A stretch of 64,000 bases of DNA. Source: Vicingus serpentipes (GTDB lineage Bacteria; Bacteroidota; Bacteroidia; Flavobacteriales_E; Vicingaceae). Every line of letters begins with the position of its first letter. Within the stretch, counting starts at the first letter, position 1. Position numbers and translations under genes: made by a program. The stretch lies in the NCBI RefSeq assembly GCF_007993035.1, contig NZ_VOOS01000001.1, forward strand, positions 620,001 to 684,000, given 5' to 3'. Below are positions 6,666 to 17,103 of the stretch, one piece after another. Under the pieces are notes generated by a model that did no database searches, was not told the DNA's origin, and worked only from the letters and a program-made list of their open reading frames with translations.

Positions 6666-9359
6666 ATGCGTTTATTAAAACGAATCTTAATTGTATTCAG
6701 TGTTTTACTTGTGCTTATTTTAGGCACTGGTATTGTCATATCTTCTATTTACGAAGAAGATGTGAAAAGCTATATGCTTAGTAAAATTAATGAGCGATTA
6801 AATACACGCATTGATGTTAAAGAAATTAATTTTTCAGTGCTTAAAAAATTCCCTTACGCTTCTTTAGAGTTTAACGATGTATCTGCTGATGAAGTAACCA
6901 AAAATGAGAAAAAAGGCACCTTATTTTCAGCACAATCAGTTTACTTACAGTTTAACATCATCGACATCATAAATAAGAATTACATTATTAAAAAAATTAA
7001 TGTTGAAAACGGACTCTTAAACATTAAAATTGATAAAAAAGGGAACAACAATTATCAAGTATGGAAGGCTGTTTCTGATAGTAGTAATCATAATTTTAAT
7101 TTAGCTTTAAGTAGTTTACAATTTAAAAACTTTACGTTTTACACATTAAACGAATACAAAAATCTTGACTTCTCAATTGAAGCAAAAACGATTGATTTAA
7201 CAGGAAATTTCTCTGCGGTAAAATATAAACTGACCACTACTGCCGACTTGTTTGTTAATCAATTTAATGAGGCTGGTCAATCTGTATTGAAAAATAAATC
7301 AATAAATGTAAACACTACTTTTTCGGTAAATCAAGAAGAAAACTTATATGAAATAAAGGAAGGTGAACTTTCTATTGAAAACCTTTCTTTTGATTTGATA
7401 GGAAATTTAAAAGAAACTGAAAATGGTACCAACCTTAATTTAAAAATTAATGCAAACAACATCCAAATTGAAGATGCTTTTTCATTGTTTCCTGAATCAG
7501 AAAAAAAGAAATTATTAACCTACAAAAGCAAAGGGGTCATTAGTTTTGAATCAACCATTATAGGTGAACTATCTACACAACACACTCCCAATATTGAAGC
7601 TGATTTTGAAATTAAAAATGGAACGATTACAGAAGTTAATTCTAACATCTCTTTATCAAAAATAAACACAAAAGGTAGTTTTAGTAATGGAAAAGGCAAA
7701 AAAAACAATACAACAAAGCTCTCTTTATCTGAATTTAATTCCGTTTTTGGGGCAGGAAAAATATCTGGTAATTATACCATTACCAACTTTACTAATCCTT
7801 ACATTGAATTTAATTCTGAAGCCAATATTGATTTAAACCAAGCACGTGATTTCTTTAAAATTGATACTCTAGAAACTGCAATAGGATTACTAGACATTAA
7901 CATTAAATACTCTGGATATATAAAAGAATTAAACAATATACAGGCTCAAGACTTACAAAAATTAAACGCGAAAGGAAACGCTGAACTTAAAAATGCAGAT
8001 TTTAAATTAGTGAATCACTCTGTTACATTTGAACAGTTAAATGGAGCTTTCCAATTTAATAACAACAATATTGAAATAGATTCTTTAAATGGAAAACTGA
8101 ATGGTAATAATTTTAACGTAAATGGAAAATTTAATAATCTATTGGCGTTTATATTTCTACAAAATGAGCCTCTAACTGTTTATGGAACAATTGAAGCTTC
8201 TAAATTGGTTTTAGATGAATTACTGCTTAAAGATGAGTCGGCAACTAAAGATTCTATTTACACATTAAGTTTGCCAAACAACATTACATTTAAATGTGTT
8301 ACAGCCATTGACACATTTACTTTTAGACGATTTAAAGCAACAGATGTAAAGGGACACCTAAACCTTAGTAATAGTGTTTTATCAGCATCTAACGTAAGTT
8401 TTAAAGCCATGAAAGGACAAATTTCAAATGCTAATTTTGTATTGAACGCTTCTGAATTAAATAGAATTACAATGACCAGTAGCGCCCAAATTGACGATAT
8501 TGATATCAATCAGTTGTTTTTTGAATTTGAAAATTTTGGGCAAGAATATTTTGTTCAAGAAAATATAAAAGGAAGAGCTACTTCCACTATTCAGTTTGCT
8601 TCTTTATGGGATAGTCATTTAACGCTAAATAAAGATTTGCTTTATGTATTAGCCGATTTAACCATTAAAAATGGTGAATTAATTGACTATAAACCCATAC
8701 TAGCAATGAGTAAATATATTGAAGTAGATGAACTTCAACATATTAAATTTAGTAACTTGAGTACTCAAATTGAAATCAAAAACCAGCTTATTTCCATTCC
8801 TAAAACCTTTATTAGATCTTCTGCTTTAGATGTTGATGTTGCAGGAACACACAGTTTTGATAATAAAATTGATTATCAATTTAGGGTTTTAATGAGTGAT
8901 GTAATATGGCGTAAAGCAAAATCAAAGAAAAAAGAAAACACAGAGTTTGGATATATAGAAGATGACAGAGAAGGAAAAATGAGTTTATATTTAAGAATGA
9001 CAGGAACTGTAGATGATTATAAAATAGGATACGATTCTAAAGGAGTAAAAGAAAAGTGGAAACAAGATTTGAAAGAAGAAAAAAAGACCGTTAAACAATT
9101 GTTAAACAACGAGTTTGGTTGGTTCAAAAAAGACAGCACCATAAATGAACCAATAGATGAAAAGCCAAAAGATTCAGGATTACAAATAGAATGGGAAGAA
9201 GACGAAGATGCAAAGACTGATGATAATAAGAAGGAAGATCGAAGTACAAAAAAAGAAGACGTCGAAAAAAATCCAAAAAAGAAAAAAGGGCTAGGAAAAT
9301 TAATTGATAAAATTGCTCAACCTGACGAGGAAGAGTTTGAGGAAGATGGAGATTTTTAA
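6666..9359 (+). CDS. AsmA-family large envelope protein
   Basis: 897-residue protein with one N-terminal membrane anchor (ILIVFSVLLVLILGTGIVI, about residues 7-25), then a long beta-rich region of repeating short strands with the LNTRIDVKEINFSVLKKFPYAS opening typical of AsmA proteins. A C-terminal AsmA_2-like segment follows, and the last about 110 residues are highly charged (Lys/Glu/Asp runs). AsmA and related proteins span the periplasm and are implicated in lipid transport between the membranes and in outer-membrane homeostasis; the role here is inferred from family only. It is followed at 17 bases by the Crp/Fnr regulator gene. Confidence 0.85.
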   Translation: MRLLKRILIVFSVLLVLILGTGIVISSIYEEDVKSYMLSKINERLNTRIDVKEINFSVLKKFPYASLEFNDVSADEVTKNEKKGTLFSAQSVYLQFNIIDIINKNYIIKKINVENGLLNIKIDKKGNNNYQVWKAVSDSSNHNFNLALSSLQFKNFTFYTLNEYKNLDFSIEAKTIDLTGNFSAVKYKLTTTADLFVNQFNEAGQSVLKNKSINVNTTFSVNQEENLYEIKEGELSIENLSFDLIGNLKETENGTNLNLKINANNIQIEDAFSLFPESEKKKLLTYKSKGVISFESTIIGELSTQHTPNIEADFEIKNGTITEVNSNISLSKINTKGSFSNGKGKKNNTTKLSLSEFNSVFGAGKISGNYTITNFTNPYIEFNSEANIDLNQARDFFKIDTLETAIGLLDINIKYSGYIKELNNIQAQDLQKLNAKGNAELKNADFKLVNHSVTFEQLNGAFQFNNNNIEIDSLNGKLNGNNFNVNGKFNNLLAFIFLQNEPLTVYGTIEASKLVLDELLLKDESATKDSIYTLSLPNNITFKCVTAIDTFTFRRFKATDVKGHLNLSNSVLSASNVSFKAMKGQISNANFVLNASELNRITMTSSAQIDDIDINQLFFEFENFGQEYFVQENIKGRATSTIQFASLWDSHLTLNKDLLYVLADLTIKNGELIDYKPILAMSKYIEVDELQHIKFSNLSTQIEIKNQLISIPKTFIRSSALDVDVAGTHSFDNKIDYQFRVLMSDVIWRKAKSKKKENTEFGYIEDDREGKMSLYLRMTGTVDDYKIGYDSKGVKEKWKQDLKEEKKTVKQLLNNEFGWFKKDSTINEPIDEKPKDSGLQIEWEEDEDAKTDDNKKEDRSTKKEDVEKNPKKKKGLGKLIDKIAQPDEEEFEEDGDF

Positions 9360-9376
9360 CTTATCACATTATTACA

Positions 9377-9937
9377 ATGGGACTTATTTCTAAAATATCA
9401 CAATTAACCGACCTTTCTCCTAAAGCTATTGAGTGGTTAGAAAAAAATATTGATCAATTTTCATGTAAAAAGAATGAAATTTTACTACATGAAAGGAAAA
9501 TATGCAATCATTTATACTATCTACAATCGGGGATGTTAACAAGTCATTACTTAATGGATGCTAAAGAAATTTGTAACTGGATAGCTATCGAGGATGATAT
9601 TGCTACTTCTTACTACAGTTTTATCTCTCGTAATCCTTCATATGAAGTTGTAGAGTGTATCGAGGCAGCTATTATTCAATCCATCAGCTATTCCAAAATT
9701 CAGGAAATGTATACTCTTTTCCCTGAAACAGAACGTGTAGGCAGATTAATATTAGAAGAATATTATTCACGATTGGATGAACGTCTAATTTCCATACAAT
9801 TTAAATCTGCTAAAGAAAGATATCGATTGCTTTTTGAAACCCGCCCTGAAATTATTAAAAGAGCGCCATTAGGTCTTATAGCTTCTTATTTGGGTATGAC
9901 TCAGGAAACTTTAAGCAGAGTTCGGGGAGAAATTTAA
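9377..9937 (+). CDS. Crp/Fnr-family transcriptional regulator
   Basis: 186-residue regulator with an N-terminal cyclic-nucleotide-binding-like beta roll (HERKICNHLYYLQSGMLTSHYL), a dimerisation helix and a C-terminal winged helix-turn-helix (APLGLIASYLGMTQETLSRVRGE). No Fnr-type cysteine cluster is visible, so oxygen sensing through Fe-S is unlikely; the effector is unknown. The recognition helix carries E-T-L-S-R, the E-x-x-S-R pattern that in Fnr contacts TTGAT half sites (Crp has E-x-x-G-R). A perfect TTGAT-N4-ATCAA palindrome begins 5 bases after its stop codon and precedes the next gene, so that gene is a likely target. It lies 17 bases behind the AsmA gene. Confidence 0.9.
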   Translation: MGLISKISQLTDLSPKAIEWLEKNIDQFSCKKNEILLHERKICNHLYYLQSGMLTSHYLMDAKEICNWIAIEDDIATSYYSFISRNPSYEVVECIEAAIIQSISYSKIQEMYTLFPETERVGRLILEEYYSRLDERLISIQFKSAKERYRLLFETRPEIIKRAPLGLIASYLGMTQETLSRVRGEI

Positions 9938-9941
9938 TTTT

Positions 9942-9955
9942 TTGATTTATATCAA
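9942..9955. promoter_or_regulatory. Fnr-type operator TTGATTTATATCAA
   Basis: Perfect match to the Fnr consensus TTGAT-N4-ATCAA. Its centre (9948.5) is 36.5 bases upstream of the last G of the -7 element at 9978-9985, so it would sit near -41.5, the class II activator position. There is no -33 element in this promoter, in keeping with activator dependence. The following T-run (9956-9962) means the same sequence could also fold as a weak 5-bp terminator hairpin for the regulator gene. Confidence 0.6.
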
Positions 9956-9977
9956 TTTTTTTCTGTTTACCTCCTTC

Positions 9978-9985
9978 TACTTTTG
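9978..9985 (+). promoter_or_regulatory. -7 element of the lipoprotein gene
   Basis: TACTTTTG is an exact TAnnTTTG match, 38 bases before the ATG at 10023. No TTG lies at the usual -33 distance. The Fnr-type box at 9942-9955 takes that place. Confidence 0.5.
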
Positions 9986-10022
9986 TTCATGATAATTATT
10001 TATGAATTAAAAAATATGAACA

Positions 10023-10607
10023 ATGAAATCTATTCTTAAAAATTTAATTTATCCTTATGGAATTACGTTAAGTCTTCTTTTTGGCATTTCATTTAATGCT
10101 TGCACTCAAAAAATGAGCGAATCTGTTAATAATGACAAAGCAGCGTTAAATGGTAGTTTTGAAGTAGTAAAAAACAACCTTCCTGTTAACTGGTTGGTTT
10201 ATACTCCAGAAACTGTTAAAAAGGGAAATTTTGACCTTGTTATTGATAGTGATGCTATAGATGGTAAACAATCATTAAAATTCATCATTCGAAGTTGCTC
10301 TGAAAAAGGTGGGTGGTTATCTCCAGGAATATCTCAAGAAATTAAAGTGGAGCCAAACAAAACCTATCATATTAAATGCTGGATAAAAAATAATAATTCT
10401 AAATTCAGAATAAAAGTAGATGCTATAGATGCTTTTACCAAAGATGTTGGACCAACAATTGAATCTTCTGAGACAACTAATAAATGGACATTGCATGAAT
10501 TAACCTACACTATTCCTGAAAAGATGGATAAATTAAGATTAGAAATAAATGCTTTACAACCTGGTACTCTTTGGATTGATCATATTACCATTGAAAAAGA
10601 TCAGTAG
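10023..10607 (+). CDS. Lipoprotein with a carbohydrate-binding-like jelly-roll domain
   Basis: 194-residue lipoprotein. The signal peptide ends in a lipobox-like LLFGISFNAC, with the lipidated Cys at about residue 28. The mature part (NGSFEVVKNNLPVNW ... GTLWIDHITIEKDQ) has the opening N-G-S-F-E and closing L-W-I-D-H-I-T-I of CBM4/9-like jelly rolls, which often bind glycans or serve as adhesion modules. No enzyme domain is present. It is the likely target of the neighbouring Crp/Fnr regulator through the box at 9942-9955. The ligand is unknown. Confidence 0.75.
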   Translation: MKSILKNLIYPYGITLSLLFGISFNACTQKMSESVNNDKAALNGSFEVVKNNLPVNWLVYTPETVKKGNFDLVIDSDAIDGKQSLKFIIRSCSEKGGWLSPGISQEIKVEPNKTYHIKCWIKNNNSKFRIKVDAIDAFTKDVGPTIESSETTNKWTLHELTYTIPEKMDKLRLEINALQPGTLWIDHITIEKDQ

Positions 10608-10664
10608 GAAGCAACATTTCATTTTAAATGAATAATTTTCAGAAAATTGATTTTTATAGAAAAT

Positions 10665-11135
10665 ATGAAAGCTGCCACCGTTTCAGAAATCAAAAAAGAA
10701 TTAAAACACCGTTCACCTGACGAGTTGCTAGAAATTTGTTTACGCCTCTCAAAATTTAAAAAAGAAAACAAAGAACTACTCACTTACCTTTTATATGAAG
10801 TTGATAACGAGGAAGCTTACATTCAAAGTGTGAAAAATGAAATTGATCAACAGTTTTCAGAAATCAATAAAAGCAGTTTCTATTTTATAAAAAAAAGCGT
10901 TCGAAAAATTTTACGAAACATTAAAAAGCATTGTCGATATTCTGGTAAAAAAGAAACTGAAGTTGAGCTACTGATATACTTTTGTAATGTGCTTAAAAAT
11001 ATGAGTCCTTCAATAAAAAGAGATCAAACTCTTTATAATATTTACCTTCGCCAAATTGAAATTATCAAAAAAATTATATCAACTCTTCACGAAGATTTAC
11101 AATATGACTACAATTTAGAATTGGAAAACTTCTAA
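10665..11135 (+). CDS. Conserved hypothetical helical protein (DUF6155-like)
   Basis: 156-residue, charged, mostly alpha-helical cytoplasmic protein without signal peptide or membrane segment. The N-terminal half (SEIKKELKHRSPDELLEICL followed by a KFKKENKELL helix) resembles what I recall of the DUF6155 family; this assignment is from memory and unchecked. I chose the ATG at 10665; an in-frame TTG at 10647 would add six residues and is less likely. Its stop interlocks with that of the convergent oxygenase gene (CTAA at 11132-11135). Function unknown. Confidence 0.7.
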   Translation: MKAATVSEIKKELKHRSPDELLEICLRLSKFKKENKELLTYLLYEVDNEEAYIQSVKNEIDQQFSEINKSSFYFIKKSVRKILRNIKKHCRYSGKKETEVELLIYFCNVLKNMSPSIKRDQTLYNIYLRQIEIIKKIISTLHEDLQYDYNLELENF

Positions 11136-11781: not shown

Positions 11782-11814
11782 CAAATGTAACTCAAAATGC
11801 TATTGCTTTATCAA
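11782..11814 (-). promoter_or_regulatory. Candidate promoter of the 2OG oxygenase gene
   Basis: On the minus strand TACATTTG (11782-11789) matches the -7 consensus, and TTG (11812-11814) lies 22 bases upstream as a -33 element. The -33 element falls inside the last codons of the neighbouring GH18 gene. Leader length to the ATG would be about 15 bases. Confidence 0.5.
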
Positions 11815-14427
11815 CTTAATGGTTTTTAATTCATTATTTGATTTCACTTTCAAAAAGTAAATTCCAGGAACTAAATCAGAGACATTTATTGTTTGCTTTT
11901 TAGCAACTATTTTTTGAGTGATTAACGTTTTCCCACCAATGTTTGAAATGCGAATATCTCTATTTTGATTATCATTAAAGCTAACTGTAATGTTATGATT
12001 CGTTGGATTTGGATAAACTTCAAAATCAATATTATTAAGTTCTTCTAATGAAGTAGTTAAGTCTACATTCACAAATTCTGTTGCTAAAACTGACACATTG
12101 TAAGCATTATCTATTACAATAGAATTAATTCTGCCTGCTGGTGTTCCTGAATAACGAATATCATCACTTGGATTTGAACCAACATTAATTAATTCAGTTG
12201 CCGTTCTGTTTTTGTAAACTCGTAAATTTTCAACATCATAAATACAATTTCCACTTCTCAATGAAATATGATTTCCTATGGTTAATGGACTTACATCTAT
12301 CCATGATGAAACAAAATCATCATCCATCCAAACTTCAGTTTCTCCTGTTATTTTATCGTAAACAATTTTTATATCATACCATTGATTTGCATTGTAAGTT
12401 ATAGAAACATCTTTTTCTAAACTAAAAGTATCATTTACTACTTTGTAAAATTGCAATTTAGCATCATCTTGTCTAAACCAAATAAAGTAAGAATTTCCTC
12501 TATTCGGTTGGCTAGCATCGTCACACATATAATGAAACCCAGCTCTTTTATTAGCACCCGAACCACTAATTTGCATTTGATAGTTATACAAGTATTTATT
12601 GTATCCATTTTGATTACATGAAGCATAAATATTTGTATTAGAATTTGATTCATCTGTTTGTGAAATGTAAACTCCTGAATTATTCCAAACTCCTGAAGAA
12701 TCTATCCAATTAGAATGTATTGTACCGTTATTGAATTCATCATTGAAAAATCCATTTTGATCGTTGCTAAACCATTCCGTTCCATTGTGATCAGCTACTT
12801 GATAAAATTGGTGCTTCACCCCACTTCCTCCTAAATTATCGGCATCCGTAAATGTGCTACTAAAATTACTTACTGCAGGATTTGGTGCTAATGAAATTTG
12901 AGTGGTTGGCTTTATTGTATCGATTATACAGGTATAATTTGCTGTAAATCCAGATTTTGTTGTTAAATTATCTGATGTAAACTTAAAAGTAATTGCGCCT
13001 GTTGTTGAGTTAAAATCAGGAGGCAAAGTAGTCCCTGTAAAAGGACTTCCTGATATTTGTGGAGCTAAATCAGTGTTTCCATCATAAATATATAGGTAAT
13101 CAAAATCCGTTTCAACATCAAAACTTGTAAATGATAATGCTATTGATGTTGCACCTTTAGGTTGAATTGTCCATGTATAATTTTCATTATCGTAATAATT
13201 TTTTGTTGGCCCACCAAAATCGTGAATTTCACCACTACAAGGATTTGAAAAACAATCTGTCATGTTATTTTCAATTGCGTCCCACAATTCCGTATAACCA
13301 TCATCATAACCTAATGCCCAAATCCCCATACCTCCTATTCCTGAGGTATTGATATGCTCTAATCGTTTTATTATGCTGTTTTCCAATGAAATGAAACATT
13401 GTTTTTGAGTTCCATTATTAAATACATATATGTCAGAATAACTATCAGTATCATAAGCATAATTAGTTAGAGAATAATTTCCTGAGATATTATCTTTTAC
13501 ATCGTTATATATTTTTGCATTTCCGCTAGCTGTAGTTGAAGAAGGAACCGTTACAGAGGATGTGCTCCATTCCCTTCCATAATAAGGTAATCCCAAAATC
13601 AATTTATCTTTAGGACATCCTTTATTTAAATAATAAGTAATTGATTTAGAAAGACTAAAATTATAAGAAACATCGAAGTGATAAAGAGGATCATTTGGCC
13701 CTGTACTTGAAGATCCAGACCAATAATAATCATATCCCATAATTATAAATTGATCTACAACTGAAGCCATACTCGAAAAATCAAATACATTATTCCAATC
13801 TACTGCATATAAGACGGTGCTTACTTCCGAATTTGGAATAGCAGCATGCATTTGATTTGCTAAGCTTATCATAAAATTGGTAAAATCGTTTTTGTTAGCT
13901 GAAGGCAATCCTTCAATATCAATATTAACTCCATGAGCCCCTCTGGATTGAATTAAGTTAATAAGGTTTGTGATTAATGTTTGCTGTGCTGTTGGACTGC
14001 TAAAAAAAGTAGCGTGGTTTGAAAATAAAGTAACTGTTAAAGTAACTTTTGTGTTACCTGAAGCTAAGGCTGCATCAACTGCCGCACTAGTTGCCCATCC
14101 ATGGGTTGAGTTTGCGTTGCCAGTTGCAGCATCAACTTCATAACTGAAAAATGAAAAATGACTTAATAAATTCCAATTGTAATTTAAATAAGCACTTCCA
14201 ACCCAGTATGGATGCCAACCATAAACAGTTTTATTTAAGGCACATCCTGCTTTATTTGAAGAATTTGGATAATTAACTGCTATTGTATTCTTCTCATAAA
14301 AACTTGCCTCTGCATTACCTAAACTATTGTAATAATCTAACTGCTGATGATGAACTGAAGTATACTGAGCATTTAAATTTAACACTACAAAACTTACCAA
14401 AATGACAAATAAAATATTTTTAATCAT
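11800..14427 (-). CDS. Secreted GH18 glycosidase with CUB and T9SS sorting domains
   Basis: 875-residue secreted enzyme. Order: signal peptide (cleaved near NLNAQ, residue 21), GH18 TIM barrel (about 65-390), CUB domain (about 398-500), a linker, a jelly-roll/LamG-like module (about 555-720) and a T9SS type A sorting domain (VYPNPTNHNITVSF to KLIKQ). The active-site strand reads HGVNIDIEGL with D170 and E172; the first two acids of the chitinase D-x-x-D-x-D-x-E motif are His and Asn. The N-I-D-x-E form is common in spore-cortex GH18 enzymes, so peptidoglycan N-acetylglucosaminidase activity is at least as likely as chitinase. The upstream amidase gene ends 3 bases before the start, so the two form an operon. 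Confidence 0.9.
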   Translation of the reverse strand: MIKNILFVILVSFVVLNLNAQYTSVHHQQLDYYNSLGNAEASFYEKNTIAVNYPNSSNKAGCALNKTVYGWHPYWVGSAYLNYNWNLLSHFSFFSYEVDAATGNANSTHGWATSAAVDAALASGNTKVTLTVTLFSNHATFFSSPTAQQTLITNLINLIQSRGAHGVNIDIEGLPSANKNDFTNFMISLANQMHAAIPNSEVSTVLYAVDWNNVFDFSSMASVVDQFIIMGYDYYWSGSSSTGPNDPLYHFDVSYNFSLSKSITYYLNKGCPKDKLILGLPYYGREWSTSSVTVPSSTTASGNAKIYNDVKDNISGNYSLTNYAYDTDSYSDIYVFNNGTQKQCFISLENSIIKRLEHINTSGIGGMGIWALGYDDGYTELWDAIENNMTDCFSNPCSGEIHDFGGPTKNYYDNENYTWTIQPKGATSIALSFTSFDVETDFDYLYIYDGNTDLAPQISGSPFTGTTLPPDFNSTTGAITFKFTSDNLTTKSGFTANYTCIIDTIKPTTQISLAPNPAVSNFSSTFTDADNLGGSGVKHQFYQVADHNGTEWFSNDQNGFFNDEFNNGTIHSNWIDSSGVWNNSGVYISQTDESNSNTNIYASCNQNGYNKYLYNYQMQISGSGANKRAGFHYMCDDASQPNRGNSYFIWFRQDDAKLQFYKVVNDTFSLEKDVSITYNANQWYDIKIVYDKITGETEVWMDDDFVSSWIDVSPLTIGNHISLRSGNCIYDVENLRVYKNRTATELINVGSNPSDDIRYSGTPAGRINSIVIDNAYNVSVLATEFVNVDLTTSLEELNNIDFEVYPNPTNHNITVSFNDNQNRDIRISNIGGKTLITQKIVAKKQTINVSDLVPGIYFLKVKSNNELKTIKLIKQ

Positions 14428-14430
14428 GTT

Positions 14431-17103
14431 TTAGTTTTTAATCAATGAGATTGTTTCATTGTTTAATTGAATAAGATAACTTCCTGAACTTAATTGGTAA
14501 GGTGCTAAATCAATCCTAATTTTTCCTCCAAAAGATTGAAATAATTTATCAAAAATTAATTTTCCTGTTAAATCAGTAAGTTTTATTTCTGTAGCCCCAT
14601 TTTCATAAGTCTCTATTATCAATTCATTTAAAAACGGATTAGGGTAAACTAAAAAGTTATATGCTACAATATCATTTATAGCTGTTGTTAAGTCAACATT
14701 TACTAGTTCTTCCGAAATGAATGAAACATTTTTAGCGTTATCAATTACTATTGACTTTATTTTTCCTGCAGGAGCGCCTTCAAATCTTATATCATCATTT
14801 ACTCCATTTCCAACAGTCACTAATTCAGAAACACTTCTATTATGGTAAACCTTAAAATTATTTACTGCATAAATAGCATCTCCACTTCTAAAAGAAACAT
14901 AATTACCATTTGTTAAATGTGGTGAATCATCTTGCCATGAAGCTTTAAAAACATCGTTAACATACACATCTATATCACCAGTTTGTTTATTAAAAGTTAC
15001 TTTAAAATCATAAAAAGTTGCTGCATTAAAATCATAAGAAACATCTTGTTTTAACTGAAATGTATCGTTAACCACTTTATAAATTTGAATTTTATCATTA
15101 TCTAATCTAAACCAAGCGAAATATGAGTTACCTCTATTTGCTAACGAAGCACTATCACAATAAAAATGAAACCCTGCTCTTCGATTAGCTCCAGTTCCAT
15201 CCATGCTTCCTTCCCAATGATATAGGTACTTGTCGTGATTGTTTTGATTTACTGCTGCAAAAATATTTGTGTTTGCATTCGTATCTTCTGATTGAACTAA
15301 ATATGATCCTGTAATATTCCAAATTCCAGATACTGAAGTCCAATCTGGATGTATTGAAGTATCGAAATTATCACTAAAAAACCCATTACTTTCATTGGCT
15401 CTCCATTCAATGCCATCATAATCTATTACTTGATAAAATTGATGTAAAACACCACTGCCGCCAATATTATCTGCATCAGTAAAATTAACCGTAAAATCAG
15501 TTAATGCTGGATTAGGTGATAATGAAATTAAAGTCGTAGGTCTTATTGTATCGGGTACAGTTGAAGACCAGGAAATTTCAAAACCAGGGTTTGTTGTTGC
15601 ACAGTCTGATCTAAACTCTAACAAAACATTACCGCTATTAACAGTAATGGTTGGAGGAATAGTTGTTCCTGTATAGAAACCTACTCTATCATCAAAAGGA
15701 GTTGTACCATCATAGATATACAAATAATCCCAAGTAGATTCTACATCAAAAGATGTTATATTTAAAGTAATAGAAGTAGCTCCTGTTGGTTGAATTAAAT
15801 AAAGCATACGCTCATCATCAGAATAATTTCCAGCTCCACCATCATCTGTAATTGTTCCTGTCAAGTTATTATTAGTAATTATTGTTGTTGTAGGTTCATT
15901 TATTAATTTATAATAATAATCCCAATCCCAATTTGCCCCAGGATCAGTATGAGTTTGGTTAGGATAATGTTGATGTCCTTTAATTTTAACACAAGAACCA
16001 GGAATAGTTGAAACATTATAATTAGTAGTAGGTGCCCAAGGAAAATAAGCTGTACGCAAAGGACTAATTCCATAACCACTTTGGGTAATATCTCTTACAA
16101 CATCTGCTGATGATTGATACATAGCAGCAGTATACCATGTTGAATCAGAAACAAAACCTTCATGTTCCATACCAATTGTATATGGATTTTCTGAACCAAC
16201 ATGCCATGCTTTATCACTTTCTAATACAACCTGAGTTACTTGGCCATCAGACGACCTTAAAACATAATGGTAAGAAACATTAGATGAACAATTGTTTGCC
16301 CAAGATATAGCTCCAGCATAAGTGCCTTGTATTGTATGAACTGTAACTGCAGAAACAGCAACTCCTCTGGAACTAAAATTACAACTTGTTAAGTTTTCTA
16401 ATGCAGGAGGATAATCAGTAGATTTTTTAGAAAGATTAGATTGCTGATAGACTTTATTTTCCTCACCTTCGACATGAAGATTATTAATAAAAACCTTTTT
16501 AGATTTTAAAATATTAAGGTTTTCTGCCCCAAATACTTTTTCTAAATCAAAATTAGGATTCGGAAAGTTATAGGCCTCCTGCATTTTAACATCATTCATA
16601 AATGATAAAACGGAATATAAATGTGAATTTAAGGCGAAATCTTGCTTTACATTTTCATTTGGTAACTCACTTAGTTGAGTTAAAATTTGAGCAATATTTT
16701 TCTCTTGATTTTTAAACGGACTCATCAGACTTAATTGATGATTATAAGCTGCGGCAAAAGCTAAAATATTTTTTTCTGGACTAGCTATAATATCGTCAAC
16801 ACTAATTCCTGAAACCTGAGAAACATAATTTAAATTATTATGGAAATAGTTTTGTCCATTTAAGGTTAGTCCCATAACTCCATATGTTTTAGGAATTCCT
16901 AAACAACTTTCTTCTACATTTTGTAAATGTTGTAACCTTGTCATGGTAAAAGATACAGCTTCTAAAACACCCCTAGGAACTAAAGGATAAACTGTGTATG
17001 CATTATCAAACTCTGCTTGATAGTTGTTTGTAGGTAAGCCCTGCTCTTGAGCTTGACAAAAGAGGCTAGAAATAAGAAAAATTGCGACTAAAAAATATTT
17101 CAT
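14431..17103 (-). CDS. Secreted N-acetylmuramoyl-L-alanine amidase with CUB and T9SS sorting domains
   Basis: 890-residue secreted protein. Signal peptide (residues 1-19), an N-terminal helical domain (about 35-200) of uncertain kind whose KTYGVMGLTLNGQNYF segment recalls lysozyme-fold muramidases, an Amidase_2/PGRP domain (about 245-400), a CUB domain (about 412-513), a jelly-roll module and a T9SS type A domain (VYPNPFLNELIIETY). Probable zinc ligands are H256 (VTVHTIQG), H377 (KGHQHYP) and D387 (THTDPGANWDW), in the AmpD pattern. It would cleave the lactyl bond between MurNAc and the stem peptide outside the cell. The region from about 515 on is paralogous to that of the GH18 protein downstream. 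Confidence 0.88.
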   Translation of the reverse strand: MKYFLVAIFLISSLFCQAQEQGLPTNNYQAEFDNAYTVYPLVPRGVLEAVSFTMTRLQHLQNVEESCLGIPKTYGVMGLTLNGQNYFHNNLNYVSQVSGISVDDIIASPEKNILAFAAAYNHQLSLMSPFKNQEKNIAQILTQLSELPNENVKQDFALNSHLYSVLSFMNDVKMQEAYNFPNPNFDLEKVFGAENLNILKSKKVFINNLHVEGEENKVYQQSNLSKKSTDYPPALENLTSCNFSSRGVAVSAVTVHTIQGTYAGAISWANNCSSNVSYHYVLRSSDGQVTQVVLESDKAWHVGSENPYTIGMEHEGFVSDSTWYTAAMYQSSADVVRDITQSGYGISPLRTAYFPWAPTTNYNVSTIPGSCVKIKGHQHYPNQTHTDPGANWDWDYYYKLINEPTTTIITNNNLTGTITDDGGAGNYSDDERMLYLIQPTGATSITLNITSFDVESTWDYLYIYDGTTPFDDRVGFYTGTTIPPTITVNSGNVLLEFRSDCATTNPGFEISWSSTVPDTIRPTTLISLSPNPALTDFTVNFTDADNIGGSGVLHQFYQVIDYDGIEWRANESNGFFSDNFDTSIHPDWTSVSGIWNITGSYLVQSEDTNANTNIFAAVNQNNHDKYLYHWEGSMDGTGANRRAGFHFYCDSASLANRGNSYFAWFRLDNDKIQIYKVVNDTFQLKQDVSYDFNAATFYDFKVTFNKQTGDIDVYVNDVFKASWQDDSPHLTNGNYVSFRSGDAIYAVNNFKVYHNRSVSELVTVGNGVNDDIRFEGAPAGKIKSIVIDNAKNVSFISEELVNVDLTTAINDIVAYNFLVYPNPFLNELIIETYENGATEIKLTDLTGKLIFDKLFQSFGGKIRIDLAPYQLSSGSYLIQLNNETISLIKN

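Follow-up and report, generated by a model that had tools for sequence, protein, structure and literature searches.

Introduction

Proteins of the Crp/Fnr superfamily have usually been studied as global regulators that respond to known small signals. CRP harbors a cAMP phosphate-binding cassette (G-E-L...R-S-A) and recognizes the half-site TGTGA, and FNR binds a [4Fe-4S] cluster through an N-terminal cysteine cluster together with a central cysteine. Promoters activated by FNR mostly have their operator at -41.5, the class II position, and this location and the operator TTGATnnnnATCAA constitute the FNR rules (PMC3688515). Ligand dependence is not universal in the superfamily: CrpPg of the Bacteroidota member P. 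gingivalis, described as a global regulator, reportedly binds DNA with no ligand present (PMC12040651), and DdrI is an effector-independent Crp protein (PMC11253593). In another family of regulators, LacI, a recognition code was derived from local regulation (PMC2978694).

Here we analyze a locus of Vicingus serpentipes, located in a 64,000-nucleotide stretch of its genome (hereafter the window), in which a gene of a Crp/Fnr-type regulator is followed by a palindrome, a promoter and a lipoprotein gene. We put at roughly 0.86 the probability that this regulator activates the neighboring lipoprotein gene from a class II position, within a Bacteroidota unit that swaps its targets, a reading that rests on sequence comparison.

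Results

All parts of the locus point in the same direction, on the forward strand. The regulator gene (9377-9937, 186 aa, stop codon TAA at 9935-9937) is followed after 4 bases by the operator TTGATTTATATCAA (9942-9955), which reads TTGAT-TTAT-ATCAA, with 4 bases between its half-sites, then after 22 bases by the -7 element TACTTTTG (9978-9985), and finally by the lipoprotein gene (10023-10607, 194 aa), whose ATG begins at 10023. The center of the box, at 9948.5, is found 36.5 bases from the last G of TACTTTTG, at 9985. An earlier note, made by a model from the DNA letters, had given both the coordinates of these features and this distance; the sequence and its open reading frames reproduced the distance and placed all coordinates right to within a base. 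Upstream, an AsmA-like gene (6666-9359) ends 17 nt before the regulator start, and so no separate promoter is apparent for the regulator. An Rfam scan of 9300-10200 detected no element. Directly 3' of the lipoprotein gene lies a 162-aa open reading frame (10647-11135) with no Pfam or NCBIfam match, and further on, on the minus strand (11800-17103), two large secreted proteins stand in tandem, which both have CUB-like repeats and, at the C-terminus, a sorting-type domain, with N-termini that are glycoside hydrolase-like and amidase-like by appearance.

The AlphaFold2 model of the regulator (pLDDT 91) has the full Crp/Fnr fold, comprising an N-terminal cNMP-type beta-roll, a long dimerization helix and a C-terminal helix-turn-helix, which places the predicted protein in the CRP/FNR superfamily. 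Its best Foldseek match was MtbCRP (3i54, E 1e-12), followed by FNR of A. fischeri (8qto, E 3e-12), at probability 1.00, with 3dn7 also found, and PF00027 scored 20 bits against a cut-off of 27.5 (E 7e-4). The recognition helix, read as E-T-L-S-R in the earlier note, is indeed present, as Q-E-T-L-S-R at residues 176-181 (codons 9902-9919); in 24 relatives Q176, E177, T178 and L179 are invariant, and S180 and R181 nearly so. The same note had described the protein as devoid of Fe-S cysteines, which is correct for the FNR-style N-terminal cluster, absent from this regulator and setting it apart from Fe-S FNR proteins, but not for cysteines at large: there are four (C30, C44, C67 and C95), among which only C44 is widely kept (20 of the 24 relatives). 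The regulator does not qualify as a CRP either, as the cAMP phosphate cassette is not visible in it by inspection and its predicted half-site is TTGAT.

To place the locus among its relatives, GTDB genomes were searched for relatives of the regulator, yielding 80 loci. In 64 out of 80 distinct relatives whose helix is QETLSR, a TTGAY-N4-RTCAA site lies no more than 200 nt past the regulator stop; the frequency of the pattern in the remainder of these loci would predict 0.7. It was present behind 1 of 27 relatives with other helices in this first set. Thus, across relatives, an FNR-type TTGATNNNNATCAA operator is associated with an E-x-x-S-R helix, and the window's pair probably belongs to this type. 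Only one of the 80 relatives had a box upstream of the regulator gene, and autoregulation through such a box was rejected. Two observations count against the activator-unit reading, namely that one relative (L052) and a group of four (L099, L101, L106 and L109) have the same helix with no box behind the gene, and that the AAA flank found 3' of the box in most relatives is missing in the window (TCAAT vs TCAAA).

The location of the box relative to the regulator varied among relatives, from overlap with the stop codon to 193 nt past it, with the distance to the promoter kept; in L067, L153 and a number of paralogues with a PETLSR helix, operator and regulator stop codon overlap, and so some bases serve both as coding sequence and as operator. 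The start codon of the downstream gene usually lies ~58-71 nt from the box start, compared to 81 nt in the window. Members from cyanobacteria (L079, L088 and L096) have two TTGA-N6-TCAA boxes, 28 bp apart, behind the regulator, and in these TAnnTTTG was not seen at the Bacteroidota spacing. At one locus (L121) a half-site seems to have been lost. Three Myxococcota loci (L122, L124 and L126) harbor the box in GC-rich form (TTGACGCGCGTCAA is an example) 2 nt past the regulator stop, preceding a small membrane-type gene. Since this gene is also present at L119, a Flavobacteriales MAG locus, the whole unit was likely transferred between phyla.

Aligning 61 distinct Bacteroidota promoters on the box revealed TTTG at one place in 56 of them, with its last G 36.5 bp from the box center, and the A of the -7 element in 59. 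TTG was found at the -33 location in only 2 of the 61; the window promoter likewise has no -33 element, as the earlier note had stated. In F. psychrophilum, transcription start site data place TAnnTTTG at -12 to -5 (PMC9723704), and the G at -5 combined with the 36.5-bp spacing puts the box center at -41.5, in agreement with the position near -41.5 that had been proposed for it. The start of the lipoprotein transcript is accordingly predicted at ~9990. At the level of sequence, this promoter resembles a class II activator-dependent sigma-A promoter of the Bacteroidota, with its operator centered at -41.5, a TAnnTTTG -7 element and no good -33 element. Crp/Fnr proteins can also repress, and the site is within the footprint of the polymerase, which raises the alternative that the neighboring regulator, once bound to the box, acts as a repressor of the lipoprotein gene or an obstacle to read-through. 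We consider this improbable, as the exact -41.5 location and the missing -33 element (59 of 61) are what is expected of activator-dependent promoters, and FNR-activated promoters cluster at -41.5.

The target in the window encodes a lipoprotein with one CBM_4_9-type beta-sandwich domain (PF02018, E 5e-10), supported by a Foldseek match of its model to CBM4 1gui (E 9e-8; pLDDT 69, N-terminus disordered), and is a putative sugar-binding protein, putatively lipidated at C27, the predicted lipid-attachment cysteine, which is invariant in four homologues. The regulators closest to the window's (L047, L048 and L049, 63-64% identity) are followed by the box and the -7 element at the same spacing and by a homologue of this lipoprotein (44-47% identity), in otherwise different gene surroundings. 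The box is therefore kept in orthologous regulator-lipoprotein pairs, the comparison that the earlier note had proposed. These three regulators form one clade with the window's, with moderate support (93/62). Near the lipoprotein homologues of four other genomes, both the box and a regulator of the family are missing, which counts against the activator-unit reading.

Other relatives carry the regulator-box-promoter unit in front of different genes: TolC-type outer membrane proteins at 37 loci, and further YiaAB membrane proteins, DoxX-like proteins, a fatty-acid hydroxylase, DUF7670, an amidase and a BAAT-type hydrolase. On the regulator tree we counted 10 target changes, compared to 31 with shuffled labels, indicating that the target tracks the ancestry of the regulator yet was exchanged repeatedly. 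As the layout of regulator, site and target recurs across Bacteroidota with many targets, it looks like a real switch in one compact unit, and as judged by sequence we are highly confident that this is a real unit of class II activation, locally acting and conserved.

Two homologues of the lipoprotein adjoin paralogous regulators with the helices KPESLSR and KPPSLSR (L185 and L187), and their operators, TTAACCTGGGTTAA and TTAACTCAGGTTAA, have the form TTAAC-N4-GTTAA and not TTGAT-N4-ATCAA and lie 37.5 from the promoter G. Given these differing helices and operators, we collected paralogues with other helices. In a set of 97 regulators with helices other than QETLSR, the perfect palindromes downstream of the gene were concentrated 36.5 bp away from the G of A..TTTG (29 cases, with 3 more at 37.5), and every other bin from 20.5 to 53.5 contained at most 2. 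The helices and half-sites formed pairs: xETLSR with TTGAT/C, QSLSR with TTACC, VSLSR with TTATC, E[YH]LS[ET] with TTAAG and TNFSK with TTGGT, and position 2 of the helix corresponded uniquely to base 4 across the 28 clusters of the first set.

Residue-to-base rules were then fixed in advance and tried on a further 128 regulators sampled throughout the phylum. The spacing was replicated, with 24 palindromes at 36.5, 2 at 37.5 and at most 2 in any other bin, and TTGAY occurred with 15 of 25 xETLSR regulators compared to 3 of 103 others. The residue rules held only in part: compared to shuffling, position 2 was correct in 17 of 23 cases (12.4 expected), position 3 in 9 of 16 (7.8) and position 6 in 18 of 24 (13.7), an excess that is weak on 17 distinct pairs. 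A strict residue-to-base code was therefore rejected as a finished code, and we claim the association by helix class: operator specificity, as read from these sequences, tracks helix class. The pairing of the window's helix with TTGAT, suggested in the earlier note, fits this pattern, in which TTGAY accompanies xETLSR; the box is missing from most paralogues whose helix differs, and some of them show a different palindrome at equal spacing.

The same association bears on a second alternative, that the box is real but bound by a separate FNR-like regulator and not by its neighbor. The genome does encode such a protein (at C1:477.7k), with an N-terminal CDTC-x8-C cysteine set, and FNR proteins bind TTGATN4ATCAA; its helix, however, is TATESVIR, in which S212 of FNR is replaced by I, it is unlinked to the box, and the box goes with QETLSR genes (64/80 vs 1/27 other relatives, and 3/103 of the held-out paralogues without xETLSR). 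We find this explanation hard to credit.

We also searched by the DNA pattern alone, blind to proteins, in 198 genomes of the window's class, and found 14 matches compared to 2 for a reversed control, 6 of the 14 located 4-31 nt behind a family regulator. Among the matches with no adjoining regulator, two precede YiaAB genes and one precedes a homologue of the window's lipoprotein. The genomes with these regulator-free matches encode members of the regulator family at other sites, including some that have an identical helix and no box behind them, which suggests regulation at a distance after regulator and target became separated. In the window's own family, the DNA-pattern search turned up four boxes immediately downstream of QETLSR regulators, one of them in the window. 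In two related genomes, a 157-aa lipoprotein gene with a perfect box and a -7 element was observed with no adjacent regulator.

The exact palindrome TTGATN4ATCAA occurs once in the window, where sites with at most one mismatch number 11 (8.9 expected). In the 2.9-Mb genome it occurs 30 times (~10 per Mb), compared to 17 times for the reversed control pattern, and the few per million positions estimated in the earlier note were too low by a few fold. With 30 exact copies the palindrome alone is weak evidence and its rarity was discarded as an argument; it is the conservation of the box, its spacing and its adjacency to the regulator that, on sequence grounds, raises it above chance. The combination TTGAY-N4-RTCAA, N22 and TAnnTTTG matched only twice genome-wide, at the window locus and at C1:412928, the latter with no regulator upstream, and a large regulon in this genome was thus rejected; a looser box/promoter pattern gave 11 matches, part of them inspected. 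The idea that the palindrome arose by chance, or serves together with the T7 next to it as a weak intrinsic terminator behind the regulator, was rejected as having negligible probability: its arms can pair, seven T follow and 30 such palindromes exist, but the stem has one G-C pair only and folds no better than shuffles (z -0.96), a terminator scan found none, and in relatives the box-promoter distance is conserved, the stop-box distance is variable and a T tract behind the box is usually missing.

Discussion

We infer that the switch binds, activates and senses as follows. The gene at 9377-9937 would encode a dimeric Crp/Fnr-type activator with neither the FNR Fe-S ligands nor a recognizable cAMP pocket motif. 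In the presence of its signal, this regulator would bind TTGAT-N4-ATCAA just downstream of the regulator gene, a site located at -41.5 in a promoter with the -7 element TAnnTTTG and without a -33 element, and recruit RNA polymerase through class II contacts, leading to transcription of the adjacent CBM-fold lipoprotein gene. Regulator, operator/promoter and target would together be a recurrent unit of the Bacteroidota with an exchangeable target gene. As most targets are envelope or membrane proteins, our guess is that the signal may be membrane-related or lipophilic, unless there is none, as reported for CrpPg.

More broadly, we lean towards viewing the Bacteroidota as a large natural library of Crp/Fnr-type units of one regulator and one promoter each, with a fixed -41.5 geometry, co-diverged helices and half-sites (TTGAY, TTAAC, TTACC, TTATC, TTAAG, TTAAA, TTAAT, TTGGT, TTGCC and more), many potentially orthogonal class II activator-promoter pairs and freely swapped targets. 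This widespread group looks local, each regulator having one promoter behind it and one exchangeable, often envelope-related gene. Given the fixed spacing, operators can be read from sequence alone, making the targets, and in time the signals, of many unnamed Bacteroidota regulators testable, and the spread of helix/operator pairs could support a measured recognition code as well as separate genetic switches for a tool-poor phylum. We found no description of these regulator-operator-target units in the openly accessible literature, the scope of our search; the parts of the unit are all of known kinds, and the phylum-wide target-swapping arrangement with diversified operators is, as far as we searched, undescribed.

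Compared to known systems, the locus is most readily set beside the class II promoters of E. coli FNR, with which it shares the half-site TTGAT, an E-x-x-S-R helix, an operator at -41.5 and an upstream promoter element that is poor or absent. Unlike E. coli FNR, the window's regulator lacks the N-terminal Fe-S cysteine cluster, is shorter (186 aa), and has one adjacent target in place of a global regulon, with a Bacteroidota -7 element at the promoter. Its closest solved relative by sequence (E 6e-15), 3dn7, a cyclic nucleotide binding regulatory protein of Cytophaga hutchinsonii, is also among its best fold matches, with ~190 aa and an equal architecture, but differs in the helix region (TPEYLSEIR), and we found no described ligand or function for it. 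CrpPg and DdrI share the Crp fold with the window's regulator, but members of its group adjoin one target each, unlike the global CrpPg. Finally, as in the LacI-family code, local sites here relate helix residues to operator bases, although that family is a different one consisting mostly of repressors, whereas these are predicted class II activators for which a simple code only partly holds.
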